64,000 bases of DNA, from positions 1-64,000 of the IMG/VR virus record IMGVR_UViG_3300011115_000233; one strand, given 5' to 3'. The notes beneath the pieces were generated by a model. That model was not told where the DNA came from, searched no databases, and saw only the letters and a program-made list of their open reading frames with translations. Numbering within the stretch: position 1 is the stretch's first letter; the number at the start of each line of letters is the position of its first letter. Position numbers and translations under genes: made by a program. Below, piece by piece: positions 27,559 to 49,257 of the stretch. This DNA is from a virus.

Positions 27559-27576
27559 TATAGCACAAATGCTATA
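27559..27576 (-). promoter_or_regulatory. Inverted repeat and extended -10-like element before the HNH gene
   Basis: A perfect 7-base inverted repeat TATAGCA-CAAA-TGCTATA lies just upstream of the HNH start. On the minus strand it contains TTTGTGCTATAT, like the extended -10 regions TTTTGTGCTACATT and CATTGTGCTATAAC of the plus-strand promoters at 30879 and 33787. A good -35 is lacking. It could be a promoter overlapped by an operator. Confidence 0.35.
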
Positions 27577-28028
27577 GTTTAGTGAAACGTAAAGGGGGTG
27601 ATGCAGCCGAGAACCCCCAACCCAAACACCACCCCCTTATCTACGTCGTGAACGACGTAAGGTGTAAAGACTCCCCCAGTGTGCTTCACTACTTGGTCGA
27701 TCAAGCCTTTCACATCGAGAGGCCGGGGGAGTGCGATGCATTTTTTATACCCCCCACCCTGTTTTGCGTCAAGGTACCATTGACGGGGGGTCTTCCTGAG
27801 TGGCGGCTAAGCGCATAGTGGCACAGAAAAATAGGGGGTACCCCTCCGCAATCCGACTTAACCCTGCCGGGGGGGGTGTCTAATGACAGGGTTTTTTAAA
27901 ACCACGTAATCGAATGTGCAAAATAGTATGTATGTAGGCGGACCTCCCCTTAATACCTGCTTTGGGGGGTCGGGGATAGGTGGGTTGGGAACAAATAGGG
28001 ATCAAACCCCCCTCCCCTATCTTTTTGT
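27577..28028. other. Gene-free divergent control region with G/C runs and hairpins
   Basis: About 450 bases with no convincing gene separate the leftward late block from the rightward early block. It has at least eight runs of five or more G or C, an 18-base near-perfect palindrome at 27642-27659 (TACGTCGT-GA-ACGACGTA), 8-base arms ACTCCCCC/GGGGGAGT (27670-27677 and 27725-27732), CGTCAA/TTGACG arms at 27767-27785, and a stem AACCCTG/CAGGGTT followed by T's (27860-27896) that may be a weak terminator. Its location beside the terminase genes also makes it a candidate packaging site. A 78-codon frame inside it looks like a shadow. Confidence 0.5.
27744..27772 (-). promoter_or_regulatory. Strong leftward sigma-70-type promoter for the late block
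   Basis: Reading leftward, TTGACG (27772-27767), exactly 17 bases, then TATAAA (27749-27744), followed by A's. The spacer contains a run of six G. The -35 overlaps one arm of a CGTCAA/TTGACG inverted repeat, which would place an operator over the promoter. It points at the HNH and terminase genes with a leader of about 190 bases. Confidence 0.6.
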
Positions 28029-28057
28029 TTGACATTCTAATCTTAGTGTGAGACATA
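28029..28057 (+). promoter_or_regulatory. Early promoter P1
   Basis: TTGACA (28029-28034), 17 bases, GACATA (28052-28057), with TGTGAGAC over the -10 region. P2 (28755) and P3 (29783) show the same layout: TTGAC(A/T), 17 bases, GACA(A/T)A. The predicted start falls just at the leader hairpin at 28064. The -10 is not canonical, so the assignment leans on the three-fold conservation. Confidence 0.6.
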
Positions 28058-28063
28058 TTGATC

Positions 28064-28076
28064 GTCGAAGAACGAC
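28064..28076 (+). promoter_or_regulatory. 5'-terminal leader hairpin of P1 transcript
   Basis: GTCG-AAGAA-CGAC begins about at the predicted +1 of P1, followed by an unpaired CACCACACACTAGGGAG ribosome-binding region before ATG 28101. P3 has the same stem with loop GAGAA, and P2 a longer stem. Such 5'-terminal stems protect mRNA from decay. Confidence 0.5.
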
Positions 28077-28100
28077 ACCACACACTAGGGAGTAACAAAC

Positions 28101-28322
28101 ATGAGCATGGTTTATCTGGCAAATGTCCAGAGCATCGAGACGAACAAGGGTCTCAACTTCTACACAGTCAACGAGCACGTGGCTGTAGATTTCCCCACCG
28201 AGGATCGCCCCAACTACTTGGTCCTCTCGCTCTTCCATCACCTCGACCTCGTGGCAACCAAGGACTTCGCCACAGCGATGGACACCGCAGCCCGTTGGCT
28301 CAAGCAAGCCGAACCAGCCTAA
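28101..28322 (+). CDS. First early protein, 73 residues, unknown function
   Basis: A small soluble protein starting MSMVYLANVQSIETNKGLN, with VAVDFPTEDRPNYLVLSLF and a helical, Ala/Trp-containing end (AARWLKQAEPA). The first Met pair leaves a choice of start at residue 1 or 3. It is preceded by a GGGAG ribosome site and promoter P1 and followed by a GNRA-loop hairpin, so it is the first gene transcribed rightward. First genes of phages are often host-takeover or anti-defence factors; no homologue is recognised. Confidence 0.6.
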   Translation: MSMVYLANVQSIETNKGLNFYTVNEHVAVDFPTEDRPNYLVLSLFHHLDLVATKDFATAMDTAARWLKQAEPA

Positions 28323-28329
28323 CAACCAA

Positions 28330-28349
28330 GGGGGAGCGCAAGCTCCCCC
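28330..28349 (+). promoter_or_regulatory. Intercistronic hairpin with GCAA tetraloop
   Basis: Stem GGGGGAGC/GCTCCCCC with loop GCAA (a GNRA tetraloop), between the 28101 and 28371 genes. No T-run follows, so it is more likely an mRNA-stabilising or processing element than a terminator. Three similar hairpins follow at 28634, 29341 and 30330. Confidence 0.6.
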
Positions 28350-28370
28350 ACCCAACCCAAGGAGCACACT

Positions 28371-28625
28371 ATGTTGTATCGTGTTAACATCTCGACTGAC
28401 TGCGGCTTCGGCCTCCCAATCTACGGCAGGACACTCTTCGAGATAATGACTCTGGCATGGCCACTCATCCAGACATGGAAGCGCAAGTATAAGAAGGACA
28501 AGCCGCTGGCCCTGCTCCAGATAGAGTATCAAGGCTTGGTCATGGAGAACTACTTCCACCACATCAAGCAGGACGATGTCTCTGACTTCCTCTTCGATGC
28601 CATGGGATACCAACGAGCAAGCTAA
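28371..28625 (+). CDS. Early protein, 84 residues, unknown function
   Basis: The frame follows an AAGGAGCACACT ribosome site. The product starts MLYRVNISTDCGFGLPIYG, has a hydrophobic/Trp segment TLFEIMTLAWPLIQTW and an acidic C-terminal part. No recognised domain. It is transcribed from P1 behind the first hairpin and is followed by another hairpin. Probably an early host-interaction protein by position only. Confidence 0.6.
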   Translation: MLYRVNISTDCGFGLPIYGRTLFEIMTLAWPLIQTWKRKYKKDKPLALLQIEYQGLVMENYFHHIKQDDVSDFLFDAMGYQRAS

Positions 28626-28633
28626 GGCGGGAC

Positions 28634-28653
28634 GGGGAGGCGGAAGCCTCCCC
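28634..28653 (+). promoter_or_regulatory. Hairpin with GGAA tetraloop after 28371 gene
   Basis: GGGGAGGC/GCCTCCCC stem with loop GGAA, another GNRA loop. An outer pair GACGGGG/CCCCGTC (28631-28637, 28662-28668) could extend or compete with it. No T-run. Confidence 0.6.
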
Positions 28654-28670
28654 CAACGCTGCCCCGTCGA

Positions 28671-28692
28671 TGATAGTAATTCCGTGCGGACC
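28671..28692 (+). repeat. GATAGT...CCGTGCGGAC repeat, copy 1
   Basis: TGATAGTAATTCCGTGCGGAC; the TCCG-TG-CGGA part is an inverted repeat. Copies lie at 29686 and 30367, and a shorter CATGCGGACAGCC at 30470. Each full copy follows a gene-end signal (a GNRA-loop hairpin for copies 1 and 3, the intrinsic terminator for copy 2) and precedes a promoter or candidate origin. Role unknown; a protein-binding site is likely. Confidence 0.5.
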
Positions 28693-28727
28693 GCCTCTAG
28701 TTTCATCACGCGGACAGCTAAAAGCCT

Positions 28728-28740
28728 CTAACTTTGTTAG
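28728..28740 (+). promoter_or_regulatory. Palindromic site CTAAC-TTT-GTTAG
   Basis: Perfect copy of the dispersed 13-base palindrome, ending 14 bases before the -35 of promoter P2. The placement is that of an operator or activator site. Confidence 0.6.
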
Positions 28741-28754
28741 TATTACGATTTATG

Positions 28755-28783
28755 TTGACATTCCGGTCAGATTGTAAGACAAA
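28755..28783 (+). promoter_or_regulatory. Early promoter P2
   Basis: TTGACA (28755-28760), 17 bases, GACAAA (28778-28783), with TGTAAGAC across the -10 region. Upstream are the palindrome at 28728 and the CCGTGCGGAC repeat; downstream the leader hairpin. It drives the 165-residue early gene. Confidence 0.6.
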
Positions 28784-28791
28784 CAAGGGGT

Positions 28792-28809
28792 CAGCGGGAC
28801 ACACCGCTG
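28792..28809 (+). promoter_or_regulatory. 5'-terminal leader hairpin of P2 transcript
   Basis: CAGCGG-GACACA-CCGCTG starts about two bases after the predicted +1. It differs in sequence from the P1 and P3 leader stems but holds the same place, and is followed by the same ACCACACACACTAGGAGG ribosome-binding region. Conservation of structure without sequence supports function. Confidence 0.55.
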
Positions 28810-28835
28810 GCAACCACACACACTAGGAGGCCATC

Positions 28836-29333
28836 ATGGCTGTTAAGACTGTTACTACTCCCGTTGCAAAAGCACGGGCCGCTTACCTCACCTCGACCGC
28901 TTCGACCTACGGCGCTCTGCGTAAGTATGCTGAGGCCCTCACGGACAAGTTTGGCGAAGGCTGGTGGAAAATCCCGATGAAGGGTCCGCTGTCTGGCAAT
29001 CAGGCGAAGGTCCGCGACGATATCCGCGCCGAGAAGGCCCTCGTCAAAGAGGGTGCCGAGAAGAAGCAGAAGGTCAACCCCAAGTATAACATCTACAAGC
29101 CTTGGAGCGACGTTCTGGCCTACGTCGATGAGTCGAAGCAGAAGAAAGGGGCCGGTGCTAATGCGGCCCGCGAAATCCGCGAGCGGCTCAAGGTGGAGCT
29201 TACCAAGCTCTACAAGGCGGTGAAGTCGGATGATGGCGCGGACGATGCCGACCTCGCACAGGCCAACTGGAATGTTGGCGCGGCTCTTACCGCCCTCGGT
29301 GTGGACCTCACCGACCTCAACATCGAAGCCTAA
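28836..29333 (+). CDS. Early protein A, paralogue of 29855-30319
   Basis: A 165-residue basic, helical protein. It shares long blocks with the 154-residue protein at 29855: STYG near residue 23, FGEGWWKIPMKGPLSGN (about residues 39-55), LVKEGAEK, YKPWSDVLAYV and KKGAGANA, then RLKVELTKLYKAV. About 60% of positions look identical by eye. No known domain. Two tandem copies, each with its own promoter, 5' hairpin and 3' hairpin, suggest a strongly expressed early product. The GWW-IPMKGPLSGN block may be a ligand or nucleic-acid site; this is a guess. Confidence 0.7.
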   Translation: MAVKTVTTPVAKARAAYLTSTASTYGALRKYAEALTDKFGEGWWKIPMKGPLSGNQAKVRDDIRAEKALVKEGAEKKQKVNPKYNIYKPWSDVLAYVDESKQKKGAGANAAREIRERLKVELTKLYKAVKSDDGADDADLAQANWNVGAALTALGVDLTDLNIEA

Positions 29334-29664: not shown

Positions 29665-29677
29665 CTAACAAAGTTAG
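29665..29677 (+). promoter_or_regulatory. Palindromic site CTAAC-AAA-GTTAG
   Basis: Perfect copy, between the terminator at 29591 and promoter P3. An imperfect copy (GTCAC-TTT-GTTAG, 29763-29775) lies seven bases before the P3 -35. Confidence 0.6.
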
Positions 29678-29685
29678 GGGCGCTG

Positions 29686-29708
29686 ATGATAGTTAATCCG
29701 TGCGGACA
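29686..29708 (+). repeat. GATAGT...CCGTGCGGAC repeat, copy 2
   Basis: GATGATAGTTAATCCGTGCGGACAGCC, 75 bases upstream of the P3 -35. The inverted TCCG-TG-CGGA core is kept although flanks differ from copy 1 by one insertion. Confidence 0.5.
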
Positions 29709-29782
29709 GCCATTAAGCAAGTAGGCGGATAGCCGCTAAGGCGACAGAAACGACGTAAATACGTCACTTTGTTAGATTTATA

Positions 29783-29854: not shown

Positions 29855-30319
29855 ATGCAGAACGTATCTAAAGCCCGCGCCGCCTTCCTGACGGCTTCCT
29901 CCAGCACCTACGGTAAGCTTAAGGCCTACGCTCTCGCTCTGGAAGAACAGTTTGGCGCAGGATGGTGGAACATCCCCATGAAGGGGCCGCTGTCGGGCAA
30001 CGAAGCCAAGGTGCGGGAAGCCATCCGCATCGAGAAGGGACTGGTCAAGGAAGGGGCCGAGAAGCGCAAGCTGTCCAACGTCTACAAGCCATGGTCGGAT
30101 GTGCTGGCCTACGTCAAGGGAGAGAAGAAGAAGGGTGCAGGTGCTAACGCACCACGTGACATCCACGACCGGCTGAAGATCGAGTTGACCAAACTCTACA
30201 AGGCAGTGCGCAACGACGATGCTGCAGACACCAAGGTGCTGGCACAGACCAACTGGCACGTTGGGAAGGCACTGGAAGAACTGGGTGTCGATCTGACCGA
30301 ACTCAACATCACAGAGTAA
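29855..30319 (+). CDS. Early protein B, paralogue of 28836-29333
   Basis: A 154-residue protein, shorter at the N-terminus than protein A, with the same core blocks: STYGKLKAYALAL, FGAGWWNIPMKGPLSGN, LVKEGAEK, VYKPWSDVLAYV, KKKGAGANAPR and LKIELTKLYKAV. The charged middle is shortened by a few residues. Codon choice differs enough that the duplication is not recent. It has its own promoter P3 and 3' hairpin (30330). Function unknown; high expression early in infection is inferred from signals. Confidence 0.7.
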   Translation: MQNVSKARAAFLTASSSTYGKLKAYALALEEQFGAGWWNIPMKGPLSGNEAKVREAIRIEKGLVKEGAEKRKLSNVYKPWSDVLAYVKGEKKKGAGANAPRDIHDRLKIELTKLYKAVRNDDAADTKVLAQTNWHVGKALEELGVDLTELNITE

Positions 30320-30329
30320 CCACAGGGAC

Positions 30330-30349
30330 GGGGAGGCGAAAGCCTCCCC
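30330..30349 (+). promoter_or_regulatory. Hairpin with GAAA tetraloop after early gene B
   Basis: GGGGAGGC/GCCTCCCC with loop GAAA, 10 bases past the stop of the 29855 gene. The fourth of the GNRA-loop hairpins; no T-run. Confidence 0.6.
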
Positions 30350-30366
30350 CAACCGCCCCGCCTTTC

Positions 30367-30390
30367 GTGATAGTAACTCCGTGCGGACAG
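30367..30390 (+). repeat. GATAGT...CCGTGCGGAC repeat, copy 3
   Basis: GTGATAGTAACTCCGTGCGGACAGCC, followed 47 bases later by the palindrome at 30437 and then by the candidate origin. A shortened fourth copy (CATGCGGACAGCC) lies inside the origin region at 30470-30483. Confidence 0.5.
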
Positions 30391-30436
30391 CCTCTGACTT
30401 GAAGGCGTAAAGCTTACAATACCTACGTCGATAGGT

Positions 30437-30449
30437 CTAACTTAGTTAG
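30437..30449 (+). promoter_or_regulatory. Palindromic site CTAAC-TTA-GTTAG
   Basis: Perfect copy at the left border of the TGTAAG repeat cluster (candidate origin). Confidence 0.6.
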
Positions 30450-30458
30450 AGGTTCTTA

Positions 30459-30819
30459 TTGTAAGGAAACCATGCGGACAGCCACCCTCTGTAAGGGAAT
30501 TTTGCTTTGTAAGGAAACTACCCCCTATTGTAAGAAAAAAACCCTAGGGTTTCTGCGCTTTGTACGGGTTGTAAGGAATGTAAGGCGTTTTTCTTACAGA
30601 CTCGACCAAGCAAGCCTCCTCGCACATGCGTAACCAATGTCAGGAAATCCCTATTATTATTATTATTTTTATTAACTTTCTTACACTACACCCCATTTTC
30701 CTTCCGAGACCCGCAGACTTCTGCCGTTTCCGATTGTAAGGTTTTACCCTAAATTTCCCTTACAAAAGGCCCATTTCCCTTACATTGCCACCATTTCCTT
30801 ACAGAGATTTCCCTTACAA
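30459..30819. other. Candidate replication origin: TGTAAG iterons around an AT-rich core
   Basis: A 670-base stretch without a gene (30320-30989) holds 13 copies of a repeat close to TTGTAAGGAAA. Plus orientation: 30459, 30489, 30507, 30528, 30569, 30578, 30734. Reverse orientation (TTTCCCTTACAA-like): 30591, 30677, 30754, 30774, 30794, 30808. A variant TTGTACGGG is at 30560. The main gap between the two groups contains the most AT-rich stretch, TATTATTATTATTATTTT, at 30652-30675. Several copies are spaced about 20 bases, two helical turns. This is the layout of iteron origins. No initiator (RepA/DnaA-like) is recognised, so the role is inferred. Confidence 0.6.
30539..30552. repeat. 14-base palindrome inside the candidate origin
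   Basis: AAACCCTAGGGTTT, a perfect palindrome between two iteron copies. It may be a protein-binding site or an extrusion point. Confidence 0.45.
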
Positions 30820-30838
30820 CCCCCATGCCCTCTCACGC

Positions 30839-30851
30839 CTAACCAAGTTAG
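30839..30851 (+). promoter_or_regulatory. Palindromic site CTAAC-CAA-GTTAG
   Basis: Perfect copy 27 bases upstream of the -35 of the 30879 promoter; together with the copy at 30963 it brackets that promoter. Confidence 0.6.
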
Positions 30852-30878
30852 GTCTCGTTGCTCTCCTGCCCACATCGC

Positions 30879-30907
30879 TTGACATAAAGAGGTTTTTGTG
30901 CTACATT
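30879..30907 (+). promoter_or_regulatory. Extended -10 sigma-70-type promoter
   Basis: TTGACA (30879-30884), 17 bases ending TGTGC, TACATT (30902-30907). The TGC before the -10 is an extended -10. The preceding CCACATCGC is also found before the 33787 promoter, and both are followed by GAAAAGAAAAAA-like sequence. Palindromes at 30839 and 30963 flank it. Confidence 0.75.
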
Positions 30908-30962
30908 GAAAAGAAAAAACTGCGACGACGGCCCCGCGCCCGACCCGCACGAGTGAGAAGCA

Positions 30963-30975
30963 CTAACAAAGTTAG
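30963..30975 (+). promoter_or_regulatory. Palindromic site CTAAC-AAA-GTTAG before the 30990 gene
   Basis: Perfect copy directly followed by AAGGAGC and ATG 30990. Here a bound protein would block transcription just after initiation, or the RNA hairpin would sit next to the ribosome site. Confidence 0.6.
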
Positions 30976-30989
30976 AAGGAGCAGATCAT

Positions 30990-31235
30990 ATGACGCAGAT
31001 TATCCAGACCACCCAACTCGACCATTGCGACCTGTGCGCTGTGCGCGATGCAATCCAAATCCGTCAGCTTGCCCACATCAATCGCCTTCGTCGCTTTGCC
31101 ATTTCTGAAGTAGGTGTTGTCATCGACATCCTTGAGAGCGACCTGCCCAAAGACGCAGCCATCGACTCCCTGCGCACCATCCTGCGCCTACTCGACAAGA
31201 TGCCGACCGACCTCCAGCAGCCAAAGCAGGTTTAA
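30990..31235 (+). CDS. Small helical early protein
   Basis: An 81-residue protein with MTQIIQTTQLDHCDLCAVRD at the N-terminus (a CxxC pair at residues 13-16) and two amphipathic helices, including VGVVIDILESDLP and IDSLRTILRLLDKM. Preceded by an AAGGAGC ribosome site. First gene of the 30879 transcription unit. No recognised function. Confidence 0.65.
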   Translation: MTQIIQTTQLDHCDLCAVRDAIQIRQLAHINRLRRFAISEVGVVIDILESDLPKDAAIDSLRTILRLLDKMPTDLQQPKQV

Positions 31236-31432: not shown

Positions 31433-31437
31433 TAGGC

Positions 31438-31450
31438 CTAACAAAGTTAG
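31438..31450 (+). promoter_or_regulatory. Palindromic site CTAAC-AAA-GTTAG
   Basis: Perfect copy directly upstream of AAGGAGC and the micropeptide gene at 31463. Confidence 0.6.
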
Positions 31451-31462
31451 AAGGAGCAAAGC

Positions 31463-31549
31463 ATGACCAAGACCGACCTCATCTTCAACCTCGCCATGCG
31501 CGGTGGCCTCATCGCCGCAATCATCCTCTACGCCCTACTCGCAGCATAA
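31463..31549 (+). CDS. Membrane micropeptide, 28 residues
   Basis: ATG 31463 follows GAAGGAGCAAAGC and the frame ends TAA 31547-31549. The product MTKTDLIFNLAMRGGLIAAI... is one hydrophobic helix with a charged N-terminus. A good ribosome site and tight packing between neighbours support it as a real gene; its role (perhaps inner-membrane modulation) is unknown. Confidence 0.55.
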   Translation: MTKTDLIFNLAMRGGLIAAIILYALLAA

Positions 31550-31560
31550 GGAGCAAACCA

Positions 31561-31749
31561 ATGCGTATCACCAGCAACACCTACTACAGCCACGTGAACT
31601 TCGTGAAAGGTGGACGGTGGCTGCAAGCCCACACTGCCACACCCGTGCTTAACTACGGCCCCTTGTGGATAACAGAGTTAGACGGCGAGGCGCTACTTGC
31701 CCACTCGCTCAAAGAGATCGACGACACCATCGCAGCCATAACAAAGTGA
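31561..31749 (+). CDS. Small early protein, 62 residues
   Basis: The frame is open further upstream, but ATG 31561 follows a TAAGGAGCAAACC site and begins MRITSNTYYSHVNFVKGGRW, typical of a real N-terminus. It ends LAHSLKEIDDTIAAITK. A palindrome with one mismatch (ATAAC-AGA-GTTAG, 31669-31681) lies inside the gene. No domain recognised. Confidence 0.6.
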   Translation: MRITSNTYYSHVNFVKGGRWLQAHTATPVLNYGPLWITELDGEALLAHSLKEIDDTIAAITK

Positions 31750-31763
31750 GAAGGAAACGCAGT

Positions 31764-32003
31764 ATGGATAAGCAAGCAGACACAGATACCATCGCGCTAC
31801 TGCGCAAGGTGGAGGAGATGCGTAAGGAACTACGCACACTGGAGACCATGCTGTCTCATGCGTGTAACGAGTATGGCAAGCGGCGCGGTATGTCCCTGTT
31901 CCGCGAGTGGCACGTGAACAACCAGCATGAGATCGAAACCAAACAGATGGAGCGGCTCGAAGAAGCAGCAGACCGCGATGCGTGGGAGAAGGCCAATGCT
32001 TGA
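31764..32003 (+). CDS. Small coiled-coil protein
   Basis: A 79-residue charged helical protein beginning MDKQADTDTIALLRKVEEM, with a heptad pattern over residues 9-30 and an RRGMSLFREWHVNNQHEIE middle. Similar coiled-coil proteins occur in phage early regions. A partial palindrome overlaps the region just upstream (31738-31750). Function unknown. Confidence 0.6.
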   Translation: MDKQADTDTIALLRKVEEMRKELRTLETMLSHACNEYGKRRGMSLFREWHVNNQHEIETKQMERLEEAADRDAWEKANA

Positions 32004-32067
32004 ACTGGGCATCGGGATGTTAGCCGCTACGTTTGCAGCCCTGCTGTGGGTATTGGAAGATGAGTAA
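31996..32067 (+). CDS. Membrane micropeptide, 23 residues
   Basis: ATG 31996 overlaps the previous stop, and the frame ends TAA 32065-32067 inside the next start. The product (MLELGIGMLAATFAALLWVL then EDE) is one hydrophobic helix with an acidic end. Overlap on both sides and the absence of other starts support it moderately. Confidence 0.45.
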   Translation: MLELGIGMLAATFAALLWVLEDE

Positions 32068-32332
32068 GGTGAAAGGCCCGCGCATCATTAGCGTGTTTGA
32101 GGCAACGGACTTTGGCGGTGGATACCTAGAGGACAGACCGAAGCAGTTTCACGTGACCATAACGTTCAAGCAACTGCGCGCACTACCGGACTGGGTGCAG
32201 GAGCAACTGCACTGGGGTTACACATACACTAATAACAAACACTGCGAGATAATCATCCATGCCAAGGACGAACTGGAAGCAGCGATGCGCTTCAAGAAAC
32301 TGTGGGCAGCAATAACAAAGTTAGGAGAATGA
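32060..32332 (+). CDS. Small early protein, 90 residues
   Basis: From ATG 32060 (a longer frame has no fitting start signal). It begins MSKVKGPRIISVFEATDFGG, has FHVTITFKQLRALPDWVQEQ, and ends with KDELEAAMRFKKLWAAITKLGE. The KDELEA block recurs in the 34963 product (AKDELEAWQKF), suggesting a shared small fold. A one-mismatch palindrome (ATAAC-AAA-GTTAG, 32312-32324) covers its last codons. Confidence 0.6.
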   Translation: MSKVKGPRIISVFEATDFGGGYLEDRPKQFHVTITFKQLRALPDWVQEQLHWGYTYTNNKHCEIIIHAKDELEAAMRFKKLWAAITKLGE

Positions 32333-32333
32333 G

Positions 32334-33898: not shown

Positions 33899-34966
33899 AT
33901 GTCTATTGATTTCGGTTCAAACATCTCCCTTGACGAAGCTGCCAGCCTCATCGTTTCCATCCCCGACAACATCTTCCTGCTCGAAGGTGAACCCGGCATC
34001 GGCAAGTCCAGCATCATGAAGGCACTCAAGGCCAAGCTTGGTGACGGCTACGCCTATGCCTACTTCGATTGCGCCCAGAAGGATTTGGGTGACATCGCAA
34101 TGCCCAGCCCGAACCGCGACTTGCGGGTAACAGAGTATTTCCCCAACGCGGCGCTCCAACTGCAATCGGGCAAGCCCGTGGTCATCATGCTTGACGAGTT
34201 CGCCAAGGCTCCTCCGCCTGTGCAGAATATGCTGCATCCGCTGCTCGAAGAACACAACCGCCGCTTGGGTGACGTAGCTTTGACCGACGGGTCTATTGTA
34301 TTCCTCACCTCTAATCTTTCGACTGATGGCGTGGGTGACGTAATCAAAGGCCATACACTCAACCGCGTGACCAAGGTGCGCGTGTCCAAGCCGGATAGCG
34401 ACCAGTGGCTGGGCTGGGCTGTCAACAACAACATCGACCCTGTTGTGATGGCGTGGGTGAAGCAGTTCCCTCAAGCACTATCATCATACACCGATGGGAC
34501 GCAGACCGAGAACCCATACATTTATAACCCCAAGGCTATGCAGAAGTCTTACGTCTCGCCTCGTTCGCTGTCTCGCGCATCTAACATTGTTAGCAAGCGT
34601 GAGAATATCTCGTCCAACGCTCTTACTGCTGCGCTGTCAGGCACAATCGGTGAAGCGGCAGCCCGCGATATGCAAGCGTTCATCGCCTATCAGGACCAGT
34701 TGCCGTCGTGGGATAGCATCATCGCAAGTCCCAAGACTGCTGGGCTTCCGTCATCCGCTGGGGCGTGTGCCGTGTTGATCTTTGGTGCAATCGCCAAGGT
34801 GACTAAAGAAACGATGACCCCGCTGATGGCGTATCTCGACCGCTTCGAACCAGAATGGCAGGCGACCTTCGCCATCAACATTGCCAAGAACCCGCAGAAG
34901 CAGAGCATCGCCTTCACCTCCGCAGCATTTGGTAACTGGATGCAGGCGAACGAAGACCTGCTGTGA
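33899..34966 (+). CDS. MoxR/CobS-like AAA+ ATPase
   Basis: A 355-residue ATPase. Walker A is LLEGEPGIGKSS (about residues 27-38), Walker B VVIMLDEFAKAPP (about 95-107), and a sensor 1 region VFLTSNLS (about 136-143). An IIYNPKAMQKSYVSPRSLSRA segment (landmark YVSPRSLSRA) follows, as in MoxR/CobS proteins where sensor 2 arginines lie near a S-P-R-S pattern. Such ATPases act with VWA-domain partners as chaperones or metal chelatases. The VWA gene follows at 35180. A palindrome at 34581-34593 lies inside the gene. Confidence 0.85.
   Translation: MSIDFGSNISLDEAASLIVSIPDNIFLLEGEPGIGKSSIMKALKAKLGDGYAYAYFDCAQKDLGDIAMPSPNRDLRVTEYFPNAALQLQSGKPVVIMLDEFAKAPPPVQNMLHPLLEEHNRRLGDVALTDGSIVFLTSNLSTDGVGDVIKGHTLNRVTKVRVSKPDSDQWLGWAVNNNIDPVVMAWVKQFPQALSSYTDGTQTENPYIYNPKAMQKSYVSPRSLSRASNIVSKRENISSNALTAALSGTIGEAAARDMQAFIAYQDQLPSWDSIIASPKTAGLPSSAGACAVLIFGAIAKVTKETMTPLMAYLDRFEPEWQATFAINIAKNPQKQSIAFTSAAFGNWMQANEDLL
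34581..34593 (+). promoter_or_regulatory. Palindromic site CTAAC-ATT-GTTAG inside the ATPase gene
   Basis: Perfect copy; the codons read Ser-Asn-Ile-Val. Confidence 0.55.
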
Positions 34967-35244
34967 GTATTGAAATATTGGGAGTGAAGCTGTGGGGGTT
35001 AGCGTCTCTGGATGAGACGCGCCTACGGCGATACGCAGTCTACTACAAACGTGAAGGGGCTATGTGGCGTGGTCTCGTGGATGCCAAGGATGAGTTGGAA
35101 GCTTGGCAGAAGTTCCACGGGCAAGTCGATAGCGCCGCACGTATCAATTACCGCCTAACAGAACAGGAGCAAAAGCAACATGGATATGCAGAAAGCAGAA
35201 CGCAAGTTGAAGAAGGTCAAGATCGGCCTGATGCGCAACCCTAA
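34963..35244 (+). CDS. Small protein between the ATPase and VWA genes
   Basis: Starts at GTG 34963, overlapping the ATPase stop (GTGA), and overlaps the VWA gene by 65 bases. The product MSIEILGVKLWGLASLDETR... has a basic middle and a VDAKDELEAWQKFHGQVD block also seen in the 32060 product. It could be a small linker protein in the complex. The overlap with the next gene is long, so its last 20 residues should be treated with caution. Confidence 0.55.
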   Translation: MSIEILGVKLWGLASLDETRLRRYAVYYKREGAMWRGLVDAKDELEAWQKFHGQVDSAARINYRLTEQEQKQHGYAESRTQVEEGQDRPDAQP

Positions 35245-36394
35245 GTTTGCGCTGTGGTCCGGTGTCATGATGGTCGGCAAGACCAGCGTGGTCGAGGGTA
35301 TTCCCACGGCTTGCACCAATGGCCGCGACGAGATGTATGGCTTGGAGTTCGTAACAAAGTTAGATGAGAAGACCCTTGGCTTCGTCATCCTGCATGAGAA
35401 CCTCCACAAAGCCTTCCGTCATCTGACCACATGGGAGAAGCTGTATAAGGAGAACCCTCGCCTCGCCAACATCGCGTGTGACCATGTTATCAACCTCATG
35501 CTTGTGGATATGGACGCAGGTGAGACTATCATAGCATTCCCGCGCAACGACGATGGTTCCCGCATGGGCTGCTACGACCCCCGCTTCAAGGGGATGCACA
35601 CCAAGCAGGTCTACGATCTACTCAAGAAGGAGCAGAAGGAGCGCGGCGATGAAGGCGGCGAAGGTAACGAGGGCTTCGACGAACACGACTGGGAAGGTGC
35701 CAAGGAACTGGACGCCGAGGAGAAGAAGGAACTCGAACGCGAGATTGACCAAGCGTTGCGTCAAGGCGTCATCGCAGACCAGAAACTGAATGGCAAGGGC
35801 GGGGGTAGCCTCAACCGTGAACTGGGCGACCTGCTTCAACCGCAGATCGACTGGCGCGAGGCGCTGCGTGAGTTTGTCTCGTCCTTCTGCAATGCCAAGG
35901 ACACTTCGTCATGGCGCAGGGTCAATCGCCGGATGCTCGCACAAGATGTGTATATGCCTAGCCTAGTAGGTGAGAAGGTAGGCCACATCGCTATCGGCAT
36001 CGACACATCCGGCTCTATCGGTGCGCATGAACTGAGCGTGTTCCTGTCCGAGGTTAAGTCTATCGTAGAAGACGTTCACCCCGATGCGCTCGATCTTATC
36101 TATTGGGACGGCGAAGTGGCGGGGCATGAGGTCTACGACATGGCAACCATGTCTAACCTTGTTAGCTCTACCAAGCCAGTAGGAGGGGGCGGCACCGACC
36201 CCCGCTGTATGATGAAGTATCTCAAAGAGAAGCAGATCAAGCCAGAGTGCATCATTCAACTGACTGACGGATATATCGGGAGTGCATGGGGTGACGAATG
36301 GGAAGCGCCAATCATGTGGGTCATCACTGAGAACCGCTATAGCAGCAGCAAGATCGTCGCGCCTGTTGGCAAGACTGTTCACATCAAGGGTTAA
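35180..36394 (+). CDS. VWA-domain protein with HExxH motif (DUF2201-like)
   Basis: A 404-residue protein starting after CAGGAGCAAAAGCAAC. The N-terminal part has an intact HENLH zinc-metallopeptidase-type motif (residues 72-76) followed by ACDHVINLMLVD, the pattern of the DUF2201 N-terminal domain. A highly acidic Glu/Lys-rich linker (about residues 150-200) comes next. The C-terminal VWA-like domain has the MIDAS start IGIDTSGSIG (about residue 275) and a GGGGTDPRCM and LTDGYIG (about residues 335-375). Partner of the AAA+ ATPase by adjacency. A palindrome at 36153 lies inside. Function in the phage is unknown. Confidence 0.8.
   Translation: MDMQKAERKLKKVKIGLMRNPKFALWSGVMMVGKTSVVEGIPTACTNGRDEMYGLEFVTKLDEKTLGFVILHENLHKAFRHLTTWEKLYKENPRLANIACDHVINLMLVDMDAGETIIAFPRNDDGSRMGCYDPRFKGMHTKQVYDLLKKEQKERGDEGGEGNEGFDEHDWEGAKELDAEEKKELEREIDQALRQGVIADQKLNGKGGGSLNRELGDLLQPQIDWREALREFVSSFCNAKDTSSWRRVNRRMLAQDVYMPSLVGEKVGHIAIGIDTSGSIGAHELSVFLSEVKSIVEDVHPDALDLIYWDGEVAGHEVYDMATMSNLVSSTKPVGGGGTDPRCMMKYLKEKQIKPECIIQLTDGYIGSAWGDEWEAPIMWVITENRYSSSKIVAPVGKTVHIKG
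36153..36165 (+). promoter_or_regulatory. Palindromic site CTAAC-CTT-GTTAG inside the VWA gene
   Basis: Perfect copy; the codons read Ser-Asn-Leu-Val. A one-mismatch copy (GTAAC-AAA-GTTAG) lies upstream at 35351-35363. Confidence 0.55.
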
Positions 36395-38763: not shown

Positions 38764-39084
38764 ATGGCAAAGACCCCTGAAAAAGTGGTCAAGGATAAAG
38801 TCGTCTCCGTTCTAAAGAGCGAGGGCGTCTACTATTTTTTCCCCGCAACGCACGGCTACGGACGCAGCGGCGTCCCTGATGTTATCGCCTGTGTGAATGG
38901 CCACTTCCTTGCCATTGAGTGCAAGGCAAACGGTAACAAGCCGACCGCCCTTCAAATCCATGAGATCGAAAAAATCCGTGCGTGTAACGGCGTAGCCGTG
39001 GTGGTCGATGAGACCAACTGGGAGATGGTGCGCGACCTAGTGCGGAAGCTCAAGGCGGTTACTGTCATAGGAGAAATAATATGA
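38764..39084 (+). CDS. VRR-NUC domain nuclease
   Basis: A 106-residue protein from ATG 38764. It has the PD-(D/E)XK layout of VRR-NUC enzymes: GVPDVIACVNGHFLAIECK, with Asp at residue 39, Glu52 and Lys54, then NGNKPTALQ with the conserved Gln64. Standalone VRR-NUC proteins in phages are structure-specific nucleases that cut Holliday junctions or flaps. It opens the replication operon. Confidence 0.9.
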   Translation: MAKTPEKVVKDKVVSVLKSEGVYYFFPATHGYGRSGVPDVIACVNGHFLAIECKANGNKPTALQIHEIEKIRACNGVAVVVDETNWEMVRDLVRKLKAVTVIGEII

Positions 39085-39212
39085 AGAAATGGATCGCACA
39101 GCGCCTGATCCTTTTGGCAATCTGGCTCGATGTTGAGACGGTGGTTTACGCATCCATCGACATCTTCAAGGCGTTGCTCGAATACGCAGAAAAGGAGGAA
39201 GGTAATGGCTGA
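39081..39212 (+). CDS. Small helical protein, 43 residues
   Basis: ATG 39081 overlaps the VRR-NUC stop (ATGA), and the frame ends TGA 39210-39212. The product MKKWIAQRLILLAIWLDVE... starts with a basic amphipathic or membrane-associated helix and ends KALLEYAEKEEGNG. No recognised family. Confidence 0.5.
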   Translation: MKKWIAQRLILLAIWLDVETVVYASIDIFKALLEYAEKEEGNG

Positions 39213-39294
39213 CCTACCACTGTTCTTCGTAATCATCGCAATTGTGGTCACGACCGTCTACCTGATCGTCACGAATGGAGATGCAAATGACTGA
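39205..39294 (+). CDS. Membrane micropeptide, 29 residues
   Basis: ATG 39205 overlaps the previous stop, preceded by an AAAGGAGGAAGGTA ribosome site. The product MADLPLFFVIIAIVVTTVYLI then a short polar tail is one membrane helix. It ends TGA 39292-39294, overlapping the next start. The very strong ribosome site supports it. Confidence 0.55.
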   Translation: MADLPLFFVIIAIVVTTVYLIVTNGDAND

Positions 39295-40446: not shown

Positions 40447-40625
40447 TGATCGAGATAGACCCATCCATGCTCGATGGTCTTGTCCGCGCATGGCTTAAAG
40501 ATACGCTCAAGACGTTAGAGATGAACCTTGCCCATGAGTACGTTCACCCAGACGACGAGAAGATGTACAAGAAAGACATCAAGGCCATCAAGCGGGTGCT
40601 GGATTATGTGGGTGAGGCGATATGA
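40443..40625 (+). CDS. Small protein preceding the DNA polymerase, 60 residues
   Basis: Begins MMIEIDPSMLDGLVRAWLKD with HPDDEKMYKKDIKAIKRVLDY. Starts by ATGA overlap and ends by overlap with the polymerase start. Predicted as two amphipathic helices. It could bind the polymerase, as small partners often do, but nothing shows this. Confidence 0.6.
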   Translation: MMIEIDPSMLDGLVRAWLKDTLKTLEMNLAHEYVHPDDEKMYKKDIKAIKRVLDYVGEAI

Positions 40626-42442
40626 ACGTCATCACCATTGACTTCGAGACCTACTACGACCAGCAATACTCCCTGTCCAAGATGACAACGGAGGAATACA
40701 TCCGTGACGAGCGCTTTGAGGCTATTGGCGTAGCGGTTAAGGTCAATGGTGGCGAGACGCAGTGGTTCAGTGGGACCAAAGTAAAAACCAAAGAGTGGCT
40801 GGACCAATTCCCGTGGGACGATGCCGTGGCCGTGGCGCATAACGCTGTGTTCGACATGGCTATCCTTAACTGGCATTTCGACATCCGACCCAAGCGCATT
40901 GTGGATACTCTATCTATGGCACGAGCCATACACGGCACGGAAGTGGGCGGTAGCCTCAAGGCGCTGGCGACTCATTACCAGTTGGGAGCGAAAGGCACTG
41001 AGGTGTCCAACGCGCTAGGTAAACGGCGACTAGATTTCACACCGGAGGAACTGGCCCGCTATGGGGAATACTGCGTCAACGATGTAGACCTCACCCATAA
41101 GTTATTTGAGCGGCTTGCTGCGGGCTTCCCGCTGCTAGAGTTGCGGCTGATCGACCTGACCATACGCATGTTCTCTGAGCCTGTGCTGGAACTGGATAGG
41201 TGGTCATTGGTGGCTCATCTAGCCAAGGTGAAGGACACGAAGAACCAGCTACTGGGTAAGGCGCTAGTGGACAAGGCGGACATTATGTCCAACCCGAAGC
41301 TGGCCGACCTGCTGCGCAAATGTGGCGTGGAGCCACCGATGAAGATCAGCCCTACCACTGGCAAAGAAGCGTTCGCCTTCGCTAAGTCGGACGAGGCATT
41401 TAAGGAGTTATTGGAGCATGAGAACCCTGTCGTTCAAGCGATTGTGGCGGCGCGTCTTGGTGTCAAGTCTACGCTGGAAGAGACGCGCACTCAGCGGTTC
41501 ATTGATATTGCCAACCGTGGGACCCTGCCCATCCCCCTACGTTACTATGCAGCGCACACCGGACGCTGGGGAGGCGACGACAAGGTCAACATGCAAAACC
41601 TCCCACGGAAGTCGCCGCTAAAGAAAGCTGTGCTGGCACCCAAAGGCTATACCTTTATCGACTGCGATAGCAGCCAGATCGAAGCGCGCACCTTGGCGTG
41701 GCTGGCAGGGCAGAATGATTTGGTTGAAGCATTTGATAGGGGGGAAGATGTGTACAAGATCATGGCGTCCGCTATCTACGGTAAGCCGGTCGAAGAAATC
41801 TCGGACGACGAGCGGTTCGTCGGGAAAACCACCATCCTCGGTGCCGGATACGGCATGGGAGCAGCAAAGTTCAAAGCCCAGCTAAAGACATTCAACGTCG
41901 ATATGGAACTAGAAGAGTGTGAGCGTATCATTCGGGTGTATCGTGAAACCTACCCCAAGATACCAGAGTTGTGGCGTGAGGCTGGCGATGCGCTGGATGC
42001 AATGGCTAACAATCAGACGGCACCACTGGGACTGGCCGGTGTGCTTACGGTGTGCGGTACAGACGGTATCAAGCTGCCCAATGGGCTAAGCCTCAAGTAC
42101 CCTAACCTGCGCTGGGTATATAACGAGAAGAACAAGCCGGAAATGCTCTACGATCAGAAGAAGGGCAAAGCCGTCATCCCTACCCGCATCTACGGTGGGA
42201 AAGCAGTTGAGAATATCTGCCAAGCACTGGCCCGCATCGTGATCGGTGAGCAGATGTTGATGATCGCACGGCGCTACCGTGTGGTGATGACCGTGCATGA
42301 CGCCGTGGGGAGCCTTGCTCCTACGGAAGAAGCTGAAGAGGCACGGAAGCATGTCGAAGCGTGTATGCGTATTCGGCCAAAATGGGCGGCGCAATTGCCG
42401 CTGAATTGTGAGAGCAAGATGGGAGCAAGCTATGGCGGGTAG
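40622..42442 (+). CDS. Family A DNA polymerase with 3'-5' exonuclease
   Basis: A 606-residue replicase. Exonuclease motifs: TIDFETYY (residues 4-11), AHNAVFDMAILN (about 71-82) and YCVNDVDLT (about 156). Polymerase motifs: A, DCDSSQIEAR (about 347-356); B, KTTILGAGYGMG (about 401-412), with the O-helix Lys and Gly/Tyr; C, MTVHDAVG (about 555-562). There is no 5'-3' exonuclease domain. Length is below that of T7 polymerase, so the thioredoxin-binding insert is probably absent. It works with the primase-ATPase at 49313 and the helicase at 46107. Confidence 0.95.
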   Translation: MNVITIDFETYYDQQYSLSKMTTEEYIRDERFEAIGVAVKVNGGETQWFSGTKVKTKEWLDQFPWDDAVAVAHNAVFDMAILNWHFDIRPKRIVDTLSMARAIHGTEVGGSLKALATHYQLGAKGTEVSNALGKRRLDFTPEELARYGEYCVNDVDLTHKLFERLAAGFPLLELRLIDLTIRMFSEPVLELDRWSLVAHLAKVKDTKNQLLGKALVDKADIMSNPKLADLLRKCGVEPPMKISPTTGKEAFAFAKSDEAFKELLEHENPVVQAIVAARLGVKSTLEETRTQRFIDIANRGTLPIPLRYYAAHTGRWGGDDKVNMQNLPRKSPLKKAVLAPKGYTFIDCDSSQIEARTLAWLAGQNDLVEAFDRGEDVYKIMASAIYGKPVEEISDDERFVGKTTILGAGYGMGAAKFKAQLKTFNVDMELEECERIIRVYRETYPKIPELWREAGDALDAMANNQTAPLGLAGVLTVCGTDGIKLPNGLSLKYPNLRWVYNEKNKPEMLYDQKKGKAVIPTRIYGGKAVENICQALARIVIGEQMLMIARRYRVVMTVHDAVGSLAPTEEAEEARKHVEACMRIRPKWAAQLPLNCESKMGASYGG

Positions 42443-43356: not shown

Positions 43357-43532
43357 TGGACTATTTTATCGTGGCTGTGCTTGTCGCCATTTGTATGGCG
43401 TGTTTGATGGCCTCATGGATTATTAGTGAAGGGCGGCTTGCAAGCCTTAAAGCCGAAAACGAGCGCCTGAACCAGAAGCTGCAACGCCACAACCCCCGTG
43501 ATGCACGTGGGCGTTTCACAAAGGATAAGTAA
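43353..43532 (+). CDS. Small membrane-anchored coiled-coil protein, 59 residues
   Basis: ATG 43353 to TAA 43530-43532. An N-terminal membrane helix (FIVAVLVAICMACLMASWII) is followed by a short leucine zipper-like stretch (LASLKAENERLNQKL) and an RDARGRFTKDK tail. The layout, TM plus coiled coil, is common in small phage proteins. The start codon overlaps the previous gene. Confidence 0.6.
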   Translation: MMDYFIVAVLVAICMACLMASWIISEGRLASLKAENERLNQKLQRHNPRDARGRFTKDK

Positions 43533-43693
43533 TGGGAAAGCCAAAGGGCAAAGCCAAGACTGCCGCTGGGCAGATCAAGGTCATTCCGAAGCGGGCACCG
43601 TTCCGCAAGGTGTGCAGCACCTGTCGCTCAAGCTGGCTGGGTGATCTAGTCTATAGCTGTGGTCACGATACAATCACAGAGCAGGACATCTAA
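43532..43693 (+). CDS. Small basic zinc-finger-like protein, 53 residues
   Basis: ATG 43532 overlaps the previous stop (TAATG) and the frame ends TAA 43691-43693. It is basic (MGKPKGKAKTAAGQIKVIPK) with CSTCRSSWLGDLVYSCGHD, a Cys-x2-Cys...Cys-x-His set that may bind zinc. Function unknown. Confidence 0.55.
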   Translation: MGKPKGKAKTAAGQIKVIPKRAPFRKVCSTCRSSWLGDLVYSCGHDTITEQDI

Positions 43694-43869
43694 TGCCATT
43701 CATAAGGAGGGGGGTGTTCAAGTGGACACCCGAACTGGAAGCCAAGCTGATCGGCCTGTTCGACTATGGTCTTAGGGCTACTGACGTAGCTGAACAGATG
43801 GGCATCACCATCGCTGCCGCCGAGGCGCGGTATCGCAAACTTAAGAAAGCACAGCAAAATGACGGATGA
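43693..43869 (+). CDS. Small HTH protein (GcrA/Myb-like)
   Basis: A 58-residue frame from ATG 43693 (TAATG coupling). A GTG at 43714 with AAGGAGG before it is an alternative start. The product reads FKWTPELEAKLIGLFDYGLR and then ATDVAEQMGITIAAAEARYRKL, a helix-turn-helix of GcrA or SANT type. A regulator or terminase-like DNA-binding role is possible. Confidence 0.6.
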   Translation: MPFIRRGVFKWTPELEAKLIGLFDYGLRATDVAEQMGITIAAAEARYRKLKKAQQNDG

Positions 43870-45136: not shown

Positions 45137-45808
45137 ATGACAGCGTGGTCCTATAGTAGCATTAAGACCTTCGACCAGTGCCCGAAGAAGTACTTTCACC
45201 TTAAGGTTGTAAAGGACGTTAAGGATACGCCGGGAGAGGCTGCTGACTATGGGACCGCAGTCCATGAAGCTGCCGAGTTGTTCATCAAAGATGGCACCCC
45301 GATACCGGCTAAGTTTGGTTACATGAAACCCATCGTGGAGTCTCTTGCCGGTATCGACGGTGAAAAGTACACCGAGTTGAAGCTGGGTGTCACCAAGACG
45401 GATGCTGGTTACGAGCCGTGCAGCTTCTTCGCCAAGAATGTCTGGTGGCGTGGCATCGTCGATCTGGTCATCATCAATGGGCACAAGGCTTACATGGTGG
45501 ACTACAAGACGGGTAAGAGCGCTAAGTATGCTGATACCAAGCAGCTTGACCTGATGGCGGGCGCGTTGTTCGTGCATTATCCGGGACTTAAAGTGATTAA
45601 GTCTGCTCTAGCATATGTAGTGAGCAACGAATTTATCAGAAAGGTCCATGTCCGAGAGGAGATGGATACATACCTAACCGTGTTCGCCGACGAACTGGGC
45701 CGCTTGGAACATGCCGAACTCAGTGGCGTGTGGAACCCCAAGAGTGGCCCTTTATGTGGCTGGTGCCCTGTGGTAGAATGCGAACACCACCGCCCACGGA
45801 GACGATAA
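45137..45808 (+). CDS. Cas4/RecB-like PD-(D/E)XK exonuclease with Fe-S cysteines
   Basis: A 223-residue protein. AVHEAAELF (about residue 42, catalytic-region His), RGIVDLV with Asp about 105, and VDYKTG with Asp/Lys about 121-123 fit the RecB-type nuclease core. CPKKYF with Cys15 and the C-terminal CGWCPVVEC (Cys207, 210, 215) give four Cys in the Cas4/AddB iron-sulfur spacing. Such phage enzymes act in 5' end processing and recombination. It lies directly between a DNA-binding protein and the helicase gene. Confidence 0.85.
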   Translation: MTAWSYSSIKTFDQCPKKYFHLKVVKDVKDTPGEAADYGTAVHEAAELFIKDGTPIPAKFGYMKPIVESLAGIDGEKYTELKLGVTKTDAGYEPCSFFAKNVWWRGIVDLVIINGHKAYMVDYKTGKSAKYADTKQLDLMAGALFVHYPGLKVIKSALAYVVSNEFIRKVHVREEMDTYLTVFADELGRLEHAELSGVWNPKSGPLCGWCPVVECEHHRPRRR

Positions 45809-46086
45809 TGGCCCGCGACTATAAGAAGGAAGCCAAGTACGAAGCCCAGCCACAGCAGGTGAAGAACCGCGTGGCGCGCAACGCAGCACGGCGCAAGCTT
45901 ATGAAGGAAGGCAAGGTTCACAAGGGCGACGGCATGGATGTCGCGCACGTAAAAGCTTTCGATAAGGGTGGTAGCAATAAGAACGGAGTGCGTGTAGAAA
46001 GCGCCTCAGCCAACCGCTCGTTCAAACGGGACAGCAAGAAGAACCTTGTGTCTGAAACCAGCAAGCGGGAACGCAAAAAGAAGTAA
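45808..46086 (+). CDS. HNH-like basic protein (divergent)
   Basis: A 92-residue, very basic protein from ATG 45808 (TAATG coupling to the nuclease gene). The RNAARRKLMKEGKVHKGDGMD and VAHVKAFDKGGSNKNGVRVES, then ANRSFKRD order resembles small phage HNH proteins, where D-H-K and N-x-x-N occur. Here the first Asp-His pair reads Ala-His, so catalysis may be altered. Could be a DNA-binding relic or a minimal nuclease. Confidence 0.6.
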   Translation: MARDYKKEAKYEAQPQQVKNRVARNAARRKLMKEGKVHKGDGMDVAHVKAFDKGGSNKNGVRVESASANRSFKRDSKKNLVSETSKRERKKK

Positions 46087-46106: not shown

Positions 46107-47657
46107 GTGCAAATTATAGATAACAAAGCGCTGGTCGTAGAGACCAGCAACCCAAGCCTAATTACCCAGAGCATCCAGAAAAGCACGATAATCGGGGAAA
46201 ACCAAGTGGCCGTCAGGTGGGGGCTGCAAGAAGTGCAGACCCTTGCTAACCTAGGTTACAAGGACGCCCCGTCGCCTATCAAGCGTGACTATAAGTGGAC
46301 CGGCAAGCATACGCCGTTCGCGCACCAAGAGACCACCTCATCCTTCCTTACAGCTAACAAGCGGGCCTTCTGCTTCAACGAGCAGGGTACGGGTAAGACG
46401 GCCTCAGTCATCTGGGCAGCGGACTATCTGATGAAGCTGGGTAAGATTAAGCGCGTCCTCGTGCTATGCCCTCTGTCGATCATGAAGTCCGCATGGCAGC
46501 GCGACCTGTTTACTTTCGCCATGCACCGCTCATGCAGTGTGGCTCATGGGGATGCCAAGGCCCGCAAGAAGATCATTGAGGCCGGTTCCGACTTCGTCAT
46601 CCTAAACTTTGATGGTCTAGCTATCGTAGAGGATGTGATCCGTGACGGCGACTTTGACCTGATCGTAGTGGATGAGGCTAACGCCTACAAGAACGCACAG
46701 ACCAATCGCTGGAAGGTGCTGGCTCGTATGGTGAAGGACCTTGACCCTTACCTGTGGATGCTAACGGGTACACCCGCAGCACAAAGTCCTGTAGATGCCT
46801 TTGGTCTGGCAAAGCTGGTTAATCCCAACAACTGCCCAAGCTACTACGGCCTGTTCCGCGATCAAGTCATGTTTAAGGTGACCCAGTTCAAATGGGCACC
46901 GAAGCCCAATTCAGATCGTGTCGTCCACCGTGTGTTGCAACCTGCTATCCGGTTTGAGAAGAAGGACTGCCTTGATCTACCGGAGGTCACGTTCACTGAG
47001 CGCGAGGCACCGCTTACAGCGCAGCAGAATAAGTACTACCTGCAACTTAAGAATGAGATGCTGATTGAGGCAGGCGGCGAAGAGATTAGTGCCGTCAATG
47101 CAGCAGTCAAGATCAATAAGCTGCTCCAGATCAGCGGAGGTGCGGTCTATTCAGATACTGGAGAAGTCATTGAGTTTGATGTCTCCAACCGCCTGAACGT
47201 GGTGCTGGAGGTCATTGAGGAGGCTGCAAACAAGGTGCTGGTCTTCGTGCCCTTCACGCACACCATCGAACTGTTGCGCGCCAAGATAGAGAAGGCTGGT
47301 GTCACCTGCGATGTCATCAATGGTAAGGTGCCACTGAATAAGCGGTCTGAGATCGTCGATAACTTCCAGACTCGCAAAGACCCGCATGTGCTTATCATCC
47401 AGCCACAGGCTGCATCGCACGGGCTTACGCTTACGGCAGCAGATACAATCATCTGGTACGCCCCGGTAACGAGTGTTGAGACCTACCTACAAGCCAACGC
47501 CCGTATCAACCGTCCGGGCCAGAAAAATGCAATGACCATCGTGCACATCCGTGGCAGCGAAGTGGAGGACCGCCTGTTCTCCATGCTGCGGGGCAACATA
47601 AAAAACCACGAAAAGATTATTGATCTGTACCGGCAGATGATGATTGATGCTGCTTGA
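46107..47657 (+). CDS. SNF2-type DNA helicase/ATPase
   Basis: A 516-residue protein starting GTG 46107 after GGTGGAG. Walker A NEQGTGKTAS (about residues 90-99), a DEAN box in VVDEANAYK (about 187-195), motif III MLTGTPAAQS (about 216-225) and C-terminal motifs with IIWYAPV, QANARINRPGQKN (about 470-485) define a superfamily 2 Snf2-like helicase. Phages use such proteins for fork remodelling or to displace bound proteins. The C-terminal part ends before the promoter-like TTGACA at 47654. Confidence 0.9.
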   Translation: MQIIDNKALVVETSNPSLITQSIQKSTIIGENQVAVRWGLQEVQTLANLGYKDAPSPIKRDYKWTGKHTPFAHQETTSSFLTANKRAFCFNEQGTGKTASVIWAADYLMKLGKIKRVLVLCPLSIMKSAWQRDLFTFAMHRSCSVAHGDAKARKKIIEAGSDFVILNFDGLAIVEDVIRDGDFDLIVVDEANAYKNAQTNRWKVLARMVKDLDPYLWMLTGTPAAQSPVDAFGLAKLVNPNNCPSYYGLFRDQVMFKVTQFKWAPKPNSDRVVHRVLQPAIRFEKKDCLDLPEVTFTEREAPLTAQQNKYYLQLKNEMLIEAGGEEISAVNAAVKINKLLQISGGAVYSDTGEVIEFDVSNRLNVVLEVIEEAANKVLVFVPFTHTIELLRAKIEKAGVTCDVINGKVPLNKRSEIVDNFQTRKDPHVLIIQPQAASHGLTLTAADTIIWYAPVTSVETYLQANARINRPGQKNAMTIVHIRGSEVEDRLFSMLRGNIKNHEKIIDLYRQMMIDAA

Positions 47658-47681
47658 CATTGTCAAATAGCATTGTAAGAA
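47654..47681 (+). promoter_or_regulatory. Promoter-like site overlapping the helicase stop
   Basis: TTGACA (47654-47659), then ATTGTAAGAATAC, with TAAGAA 16 bases after the -35. It shares the TGTAAGA word with P2, P3 and the candidate origin. TTGACATTGTCAA is also a 13-base palindrome. It may drive the 47708-52340 genes. Confidence 0.45.
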
Positions 47682-47707
47682 TACCGGTGTCTAATAAGGA
47701 GCAACCT

Positions 47708-49024: not shown

Positions 49025-49257
49025 TGAGTTACGGCTACAGCGTTAAGCTGGTAGAAGCCAATCAACAGGCTGACGAGGCGCACTTGGGGGTGCAGCTAGG
49101 GAGGAAGTGCATTGAGCATGGTATCCCTGTGAGCAAAGCTGCCGATGACCTCGGTGCTACTCGTCAGACTGTATACAACTGGTTCTGTGGGGGTAGCATC
49201 CCACAGGGCGAGTTCGTTGGGCTGATCCATAATTACATCGCTCAACTGCCTAATTGA
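49024..49257 (+). CDS. HTH regulator, 77 residues
   Basis: ATG 49024 overlaps the previous stop (TAATG). The product has a Cro-like helix-turn-helix in GIPVSKAADDLGATRQTVYN, with VYNWFCGGSIPQGEF. Small Cro-type proteins bind operators as dimers. It is the second candidate, with the RHH-like protein at 38467, for recognising the 13-base palindromes. Confidence 0.65.
   Translation: MSYGYSVKLVEANQQADEAHLGVQLGRKCIEHGIPVSKAADDLGATRQTVYNWFCGGSIPQGEFVGLIHNYIAQLPN

Follow-up and report, generated by a model that had tools for sequence, protein, structure and literature searches.

The repeat array and its genome setting

A dense array of the hexamer TGTAAG surrounds an AT-rich core in an intergenic stretch (30320-30989) of the early and replication block of a phage genome. 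The window, the whole stretch of 64,000 bases that was analysed, takes in positions 1-64000 of a virus record that is 64,461 bases long. The two ends of this record share an overlap of 158 bases, in which 3 are mismatched, and the map is therefore circular with a length of ~64.3 kb; several relatives likewise close, having been opened at other points. The - strand carries the structural genes, one group of which, with those for terminase, portal and major head protein, lies left of ~28 kb and another right of 52.4 kb. The early and replication block lies on the + strand from 28.8 to 52.3 kb and includes a family-A DNA polymerase (40622-42442, + strand). Among named phages, this polymerase is closest to those of Rhizobium phage RHph_TM3_14A and its kin and of Pseudomonas phage KPP25. 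The array region itself has no DNA similarity to named phages, and a host search in genome contigs matched only MAG contigs of mixed assignment. An earlier note on this DNA held that the only other long gene-free stretch was at 27.6 kb, which is wrong, as the stretch is one of several (27567-28835, 31433-32333, 38771-39274 and 43357-43858 are the others).

Several further genes of the block were recorded. The interval 33899-36394 holds a gene for a MoxR-like AAA ATPase (phrog_1297) and, after it, a DUF2201 gene of VWA/metallopeptidase-like type; both are conserved in most relatives. Two small conserved genes (45730-46086 and 47654-48112) lie between an exonuclease and the primase-helicase described below; the PHROG matched by the second bears the label minor head protein, despite the location of this gene in the replication block.

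Thirteen TGTAAG copies lie within 30460-30818, seven on the + strand and six on the - strand, as previously claimed. The left set (30460-30584) holds six + strand copies reading toward the core, starting at 30460, 30490, 30508, 30529, 30570 and 30579, with the extended form TTGTAAGGRAA and a lone reversed copy at its inner end (30593-30598, - strand). The right set (30680-30818) holds five - strand copies, also reading toward the core (30680, 30759, 30779, 30798 and 30813), and encloses a single + strand copy at 30735. A 14th copy (30413, - strand) lies just beyond the array. Successive spacings are 30, 18, 21, 41, 9, 14, 87, 55, 24, 20, 19 and 15 bases, so the spacing of about 20 that the earlier note gave for several copies describes 5-6 of the 12 steps.

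Between the two sets lies the AT-rich core (30652-30675), a candidate DNA unwinding element. All 24 of its bases are A or T, which makes it the genome's only pure-A/T 24-mer, and nearest-neighbour stability reaches its genome minimum here at 30, 50 and 100 bp. A conserved block, CTCGCACATGC, precedes the core (30619-30629), and a conserved CCCGCAgaCTTCTGCC element occupies the interval between the core and the right iterons (30710-30725). The array is flanked by the palindromes CTAACTTAGTTAG (30437-30449) on the left and CTAACCAAGTTAG (30839-30851) on the right. To the right, a sigma70-like promoter, TTGACA-17-TACATT (30879-30907, + strand), reads into the early and replication genes. The 14-base palindrome of the earlier note is present (AAACCCTAGGGTTT, 30539-30552) and is not conserved in relatives. 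Rfam and tRNA scans gave no match.

Only the clustering of TGTAAG is exceptional, because the whole window holds merely 37 copies against 27 expected, a mild enrichment. When the window was shuffled 300 times, no stretch of 361 bp held more than 4 copies, against the 13 seen here; 5000 local shuffles likewise gave no more than 4, against the 14 copies of the intergenic stretch. In 20 shuffled windows no 6-mer formed a cluster of more than 6, and no other 6-mer matches the clustering of TGTAAG. The earlier note had let its case for an origin depend on a density above that of other AT-rich DNA, and on this point the origin reading stands. The repeats of one short sequence far above chance and the adjoining AT-rich unwinding element that characterize iteron-type origins are both found here, the first in the array and the second in the core. 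The mark of a DnaA-dependent origin was not found, there being no TTWTNCACA box in 30320-30990. GC skew, which had been suggested as a further check, has its minimum at 34.9 kb and tracks gene strand, as does fourfold-site skew by block; neither switches at the array, and the check is uninformative about it.

Conservation among relatives

Contigs covering the array region were obtained via relatives of the polymerase and the ATPase. Seventeen related contigs that span the region have the array at the matching position, and in most of them the ATPase gene follows 2-3.5 kb downstream. In 17 of the 19 contigs tested, no window is denser in TGTWA than the array, the exceptions being G015, whose array uses AGTTAG, and G004, which ends before the region. 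From left to right, relatives keep an order of right-pointing iterons, a CGCAnnTGC-like block (CTCTCGCAGATGC, CTCCGCAAGTGC and similar), an AT-rich run and left-pointing iterons. A CCGCA-n-TTCTGCC-like block with one right-pointing iteron is also conserved, and most of the relatives read have a TTGACA-type promoter at a comparable place.

The inward orientation of the iterons recurs across 18 arrays, with 98 + against 26 - copies left of the core (p 5e-11) and 91 - against 34 + copies right of it (p 3e-7), both values being overstated because the relatives are not independent of each other. In 14 of 18 contigs the core ranks first for lowest 30-bp stability, and in the others it ranks 2nd to 5th. 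The spelling of the iteron drifts among relatives while the architecture and place of the array persist. The closest relatives use TGTAAG, G005 uses TGTAAT/TGTAAG and G006 uses TGTAAA; G012 and G014 have TGTTAG/TGTTAT, G016 and G018 have TGTTAT/TGTTAC, and others such as G015, L199 and L207 have AGTTAG or AGTTAT.

More distant phages were also considered. In a distant Rhizobium phage, of which 32 kb was examined, the 24-mer richest in A and T falls in the matching intergenic gap, as does a TTGACA site that resembles a promoter, and the repeats are too degenerate to call. No array was found in Pseudomonas phage KPP25, whose polymerase is related and which is absent among the listed matches of the primase-helicase. 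Phage Rollin has a related primase-helicase (28%) and no comparable array in its partial record.

Dispersed palindromes and leader modules

The flanking palindromes belong to a set of 12 copies of the 13-bp palindrome CTAAC-N3-GTTAG, located only in 28.7-38.7 kb (28728, 29665, 30437, 30839, 30963, 31438, 32750, 33304, 33870, 34581, 36153 and 38656), where ~0.06 would be expected in the genome. Two flank the array, many lie just 5' of ribosome-binding sites and three lie within genes. Many relatives have 9-21 such palindromes confined to the same block, in some cases with changed sequences (CTAACAnTGTTAG, CTAACATGTTAG, GTAAC-N4-GTTAC or GGTTAC-N5-GTAACC). The set looks like a system of operators resembling stoperators.

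Outside the array, two paralogous genes (28836-29333 and 29855-30319) are preceded by promoter-like leaders of the form TTGACN-N12-TGTAAGAC, each with a single TGTAAG site (28773 and 29801). A similar leader is kept in G001-G003. The leaders at 28640-28730, 29665-29720 and 30330-30400 share the module TGATAGTnAnTCCGTGCGGACnGCC with a neighbouring palindrome, and a GGGGAGGCnnnAGCCTCCCC hairpin follows some genes; the arrangement looks like duplicated gene cassettes.

Candidate initiator proteins

The presumed initiator is a 950-aa PrimPol-helicase fusion (49313-52165, + strand) that joins an AEP/PrimPol N-terminus to a DUF927 AAA+ helicase and ends, according to its structural model, in a winged-helix-like domain at about residues 855-930. 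A profile search of the PDB with this protein returned two matches only, SCCmec Cch (E 3e-18) and SaPIbov1 Rep (E 2e-14). A fold search with the full-length AlphaFold2 model, which is of moderate confidence (mean pLDDT 73), again placed Cch (2e-18) and SaPIbov1 Rep (2e-14) first, followed by PrimPol structures and, more weakly, SaPI5 PriRep1. The best PDB match of the DUF927-type helicase is 5dgk, and the N-terminal half matches PrimPol/RepB' primases by fold. When the C-terminal 139 residues were modelled alone (pLDDT 78), the two best fold matches were once more Cch and SaPIbov1 Rep, at a weak E of 0.02-0.04, and the next was a DNA-bound accessory protein of the pCW3 relaxosome, also weak (listed E-values 0.02-0.06). 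The product of a Rhizobium phage gene labelled 'putative integrase' (MN988472.1 42239-45322; 28240-31323 of L122) is related to the primase-helicase (25% over 90%), and the label is probably a misannotation.

Array-bearing relatives in which the region is sequenced share, among other genes, those for the polymerase, a RecB-like exonuclease, a SNF2 helicase, a 299-aa protein, a 76-aa helix-turn-helix protein and the 950-aa primase-helicase. The MoxR-like ATPase was rejected as an initiator, as G006 has the array and lacks this gene. Comparison of iteron dialects with protein distances placed the replication-block genes above most structural ones, with no single gene standing out, and the PrimPol-helicase tree tracks iteron dialect no better than those of other replication-block genes.

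The 76-aa helix-turn-helix protein (49027-49257, + strand) is an alternative candidate for binding the iterons or the palindromes. In all relatives with the region its gene immediately precedes that of the PrimPol-helicase, and the protein is 47-96% identical; the C-terminus of the primase-helicase is rather conserved even though the iterons vary. An origin read by this or another early protein, which would then recruit the helicase in the manner of lambda O or DnaA, is a possible but less likely arrangement. Against it, the recognition helix of the helix-turn-helix protein is likewise conserved across the dialects, and Cch2 and SaPI Rep themselves bind their iterons (PMC7581432). Candidate targets for protein binding are the TGTAAG, TGTTAG and AGTTAG arrays and CTAACnnnGTTAG; candidate binders are residues 812-950 of the primase-helicase and the 76-aa protein.

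Comparison with known replicons

PICI origins consist of an AT-rich region between two sets of iterons, as described in a paper that also mentions P4 alpha and its ori (PMC6092414). SaPI Rep and Cch2 read iterons through a C-terminal domain, and the isolated domain of Cch2 binds its putative origin (PMC7581432). Like the PICI/SaPI replicon (SaPIbov1, SaPI5, EcCICFT073), in which a Pri-Rep is paired with an iteron-AT-iteron origin, the phage has two iteron sets flanking an AT-rich core and a helicase of the Cch/SaPIbov1-Rep type with a C-terminal domain, its primase fused as in PriRep1. In contrast to PICI/SaPI origins, which lie directly 3' of rep, the phage array is at 30.6 kb and the helicase gene at 49.3-52.2 kb, and a search for a second dense array elsewhere in the contig found none. 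The phage replicon further differs in having a family-A polymerase in the block, an adjacent early promoter and flanking palindromes. Whereas a PICI is a small island that uses helper-phage capsids, this ~64-kb phage encodes a terminase, a portal and a major head protein of its own within a large structural block. It is thus not a PICI and departs in one aspect of layout, the distance of 19 kb between gene and origin, yet by analogy we infer that its replicon works like that of a PICI.

The SCCmec Cch/Cch2 module shares the DUF927-type helicase, and the C-terminal domain of Cch2 binds short iterons (PMC7581432); its putative origin differs in comprising three AAGTG iterons in direct orientation next to the helicase gene, without a large inverted double array. 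Iterons and a primase-helicase fusion with a putative origin-binding domain also recall satellite phage P4 (alpha, ori/crr). P4 alpha is a fusion of primase, helicase and origin-binding functions and reads iterons, and the P4 origin is split into two separate sites. The origin of lambda type, with iterons for the O protein, resembles the phage array in placing iterons beside an AT-rich region. Lambda iterons are direct, lie within the initiator gene and serve to recruit the host helicase, whereas the array here is intergenic and inverted and is accompanied by a phage helicase.

A candidate replication origin

The repeat cluster is most likely the place where the phage starts copying its DNA. 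We consider that 30460-30818 is probably the replication origin and that its reader, going by the comparisons above, would most likely be the PrimPol-helicase; the best reading is an origin like those of PICI/SaPI elements that belongs to a family of phages and lies ~19 kb from the presumed initiator gene. This distance from the helicase gene counts against the reading, as do the GC skew with no switch at the array, the failure of iteron dialect to follow the PrimPol-helicase tree better than other replication-block genes, the weak similarity of the C-terminal domain and the moderate confidence of the full-length model. A plain transcription control array is the main alternative function, in which sites for a phage regulator would govern the rightward promoter at 30879 and the early operon without any role in replication. 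The promoter abuts the repeats here and in relatives, single TGTAAG sites occur in two promoter-like leaders (28773 and 29801), and a helix-turn-helix protein is conserved, all of which would suit such a function. We regard it as improbable, and an origin is favoured because the inward symmetry extends over 18 relatives and in 14 of 18 contigs no site is less stable than the core, because the location is fixed while the iteron sequence drifts, and because the same genome encodes a helicase resembling the self-loading initiators Cch and SaPI Rep. Moreover, at least 13 sites in both orientations within 360 bp, arranged as mirror images about the weakest duplex of the genome, would be unusual for operators, which do not need a core of such extreme AT content, and the separate set of palindromic sites already resembles an operator system. 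A packaging (pac) or partition site, to which the terminase genes 3-5 kb away and the ability of repeat arrays to act as centromeres might point, is very improbable, since neither requires a melting core, no ParA/ParB-like gene was found among the early-block genes tested, and the location of the array follows the replication block.

For an origin at the array, a mechanism can be proposed from the PICI-like layout and the Cch/Rep-type helicase with its fused primase, which together lead us to infer that the primase-helicase binds the iterons, melts the core and loads outward. The initiator, most likely the PrimPol-helicase acting through its C-terminal winged-helix-like domain, would bind both iteron sets as two oligomers, melt the AT-rich core and load itself as two helicases facing outward. 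The N-terminal PrimPol would then prime synthesis and the phage family-A polymerase would extend the primers, while the small helix-turn-helix protein may assist or may be the actual reader of the iterons. As the sigma70-like promoter abuts the array, an additional role in transcription is possible, and the promoter probably couples early transcription with opening of the origin.

Biological significance

Origins of tailed phages are mostly unknown outside a few models. The double iteron array, the least stable site of the genome and the type of helicase are three independent marks, and they therefore provide an origin and initiator pair that can be tested across a family. With its series of iteron dialects, the family offers a natural, ready-made experiment on the joint divergence of initiator and origin. 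Since the iterons and the dispersed palindromes both change dialect among relatives, they could act as compatibility groups for replication and regulation, and such phages may be the source from which satellites acquired their replicon; we offer this only tentatively. The finding links the replication of these phages to the replicon of phage satellites and SCCmec-type elements.
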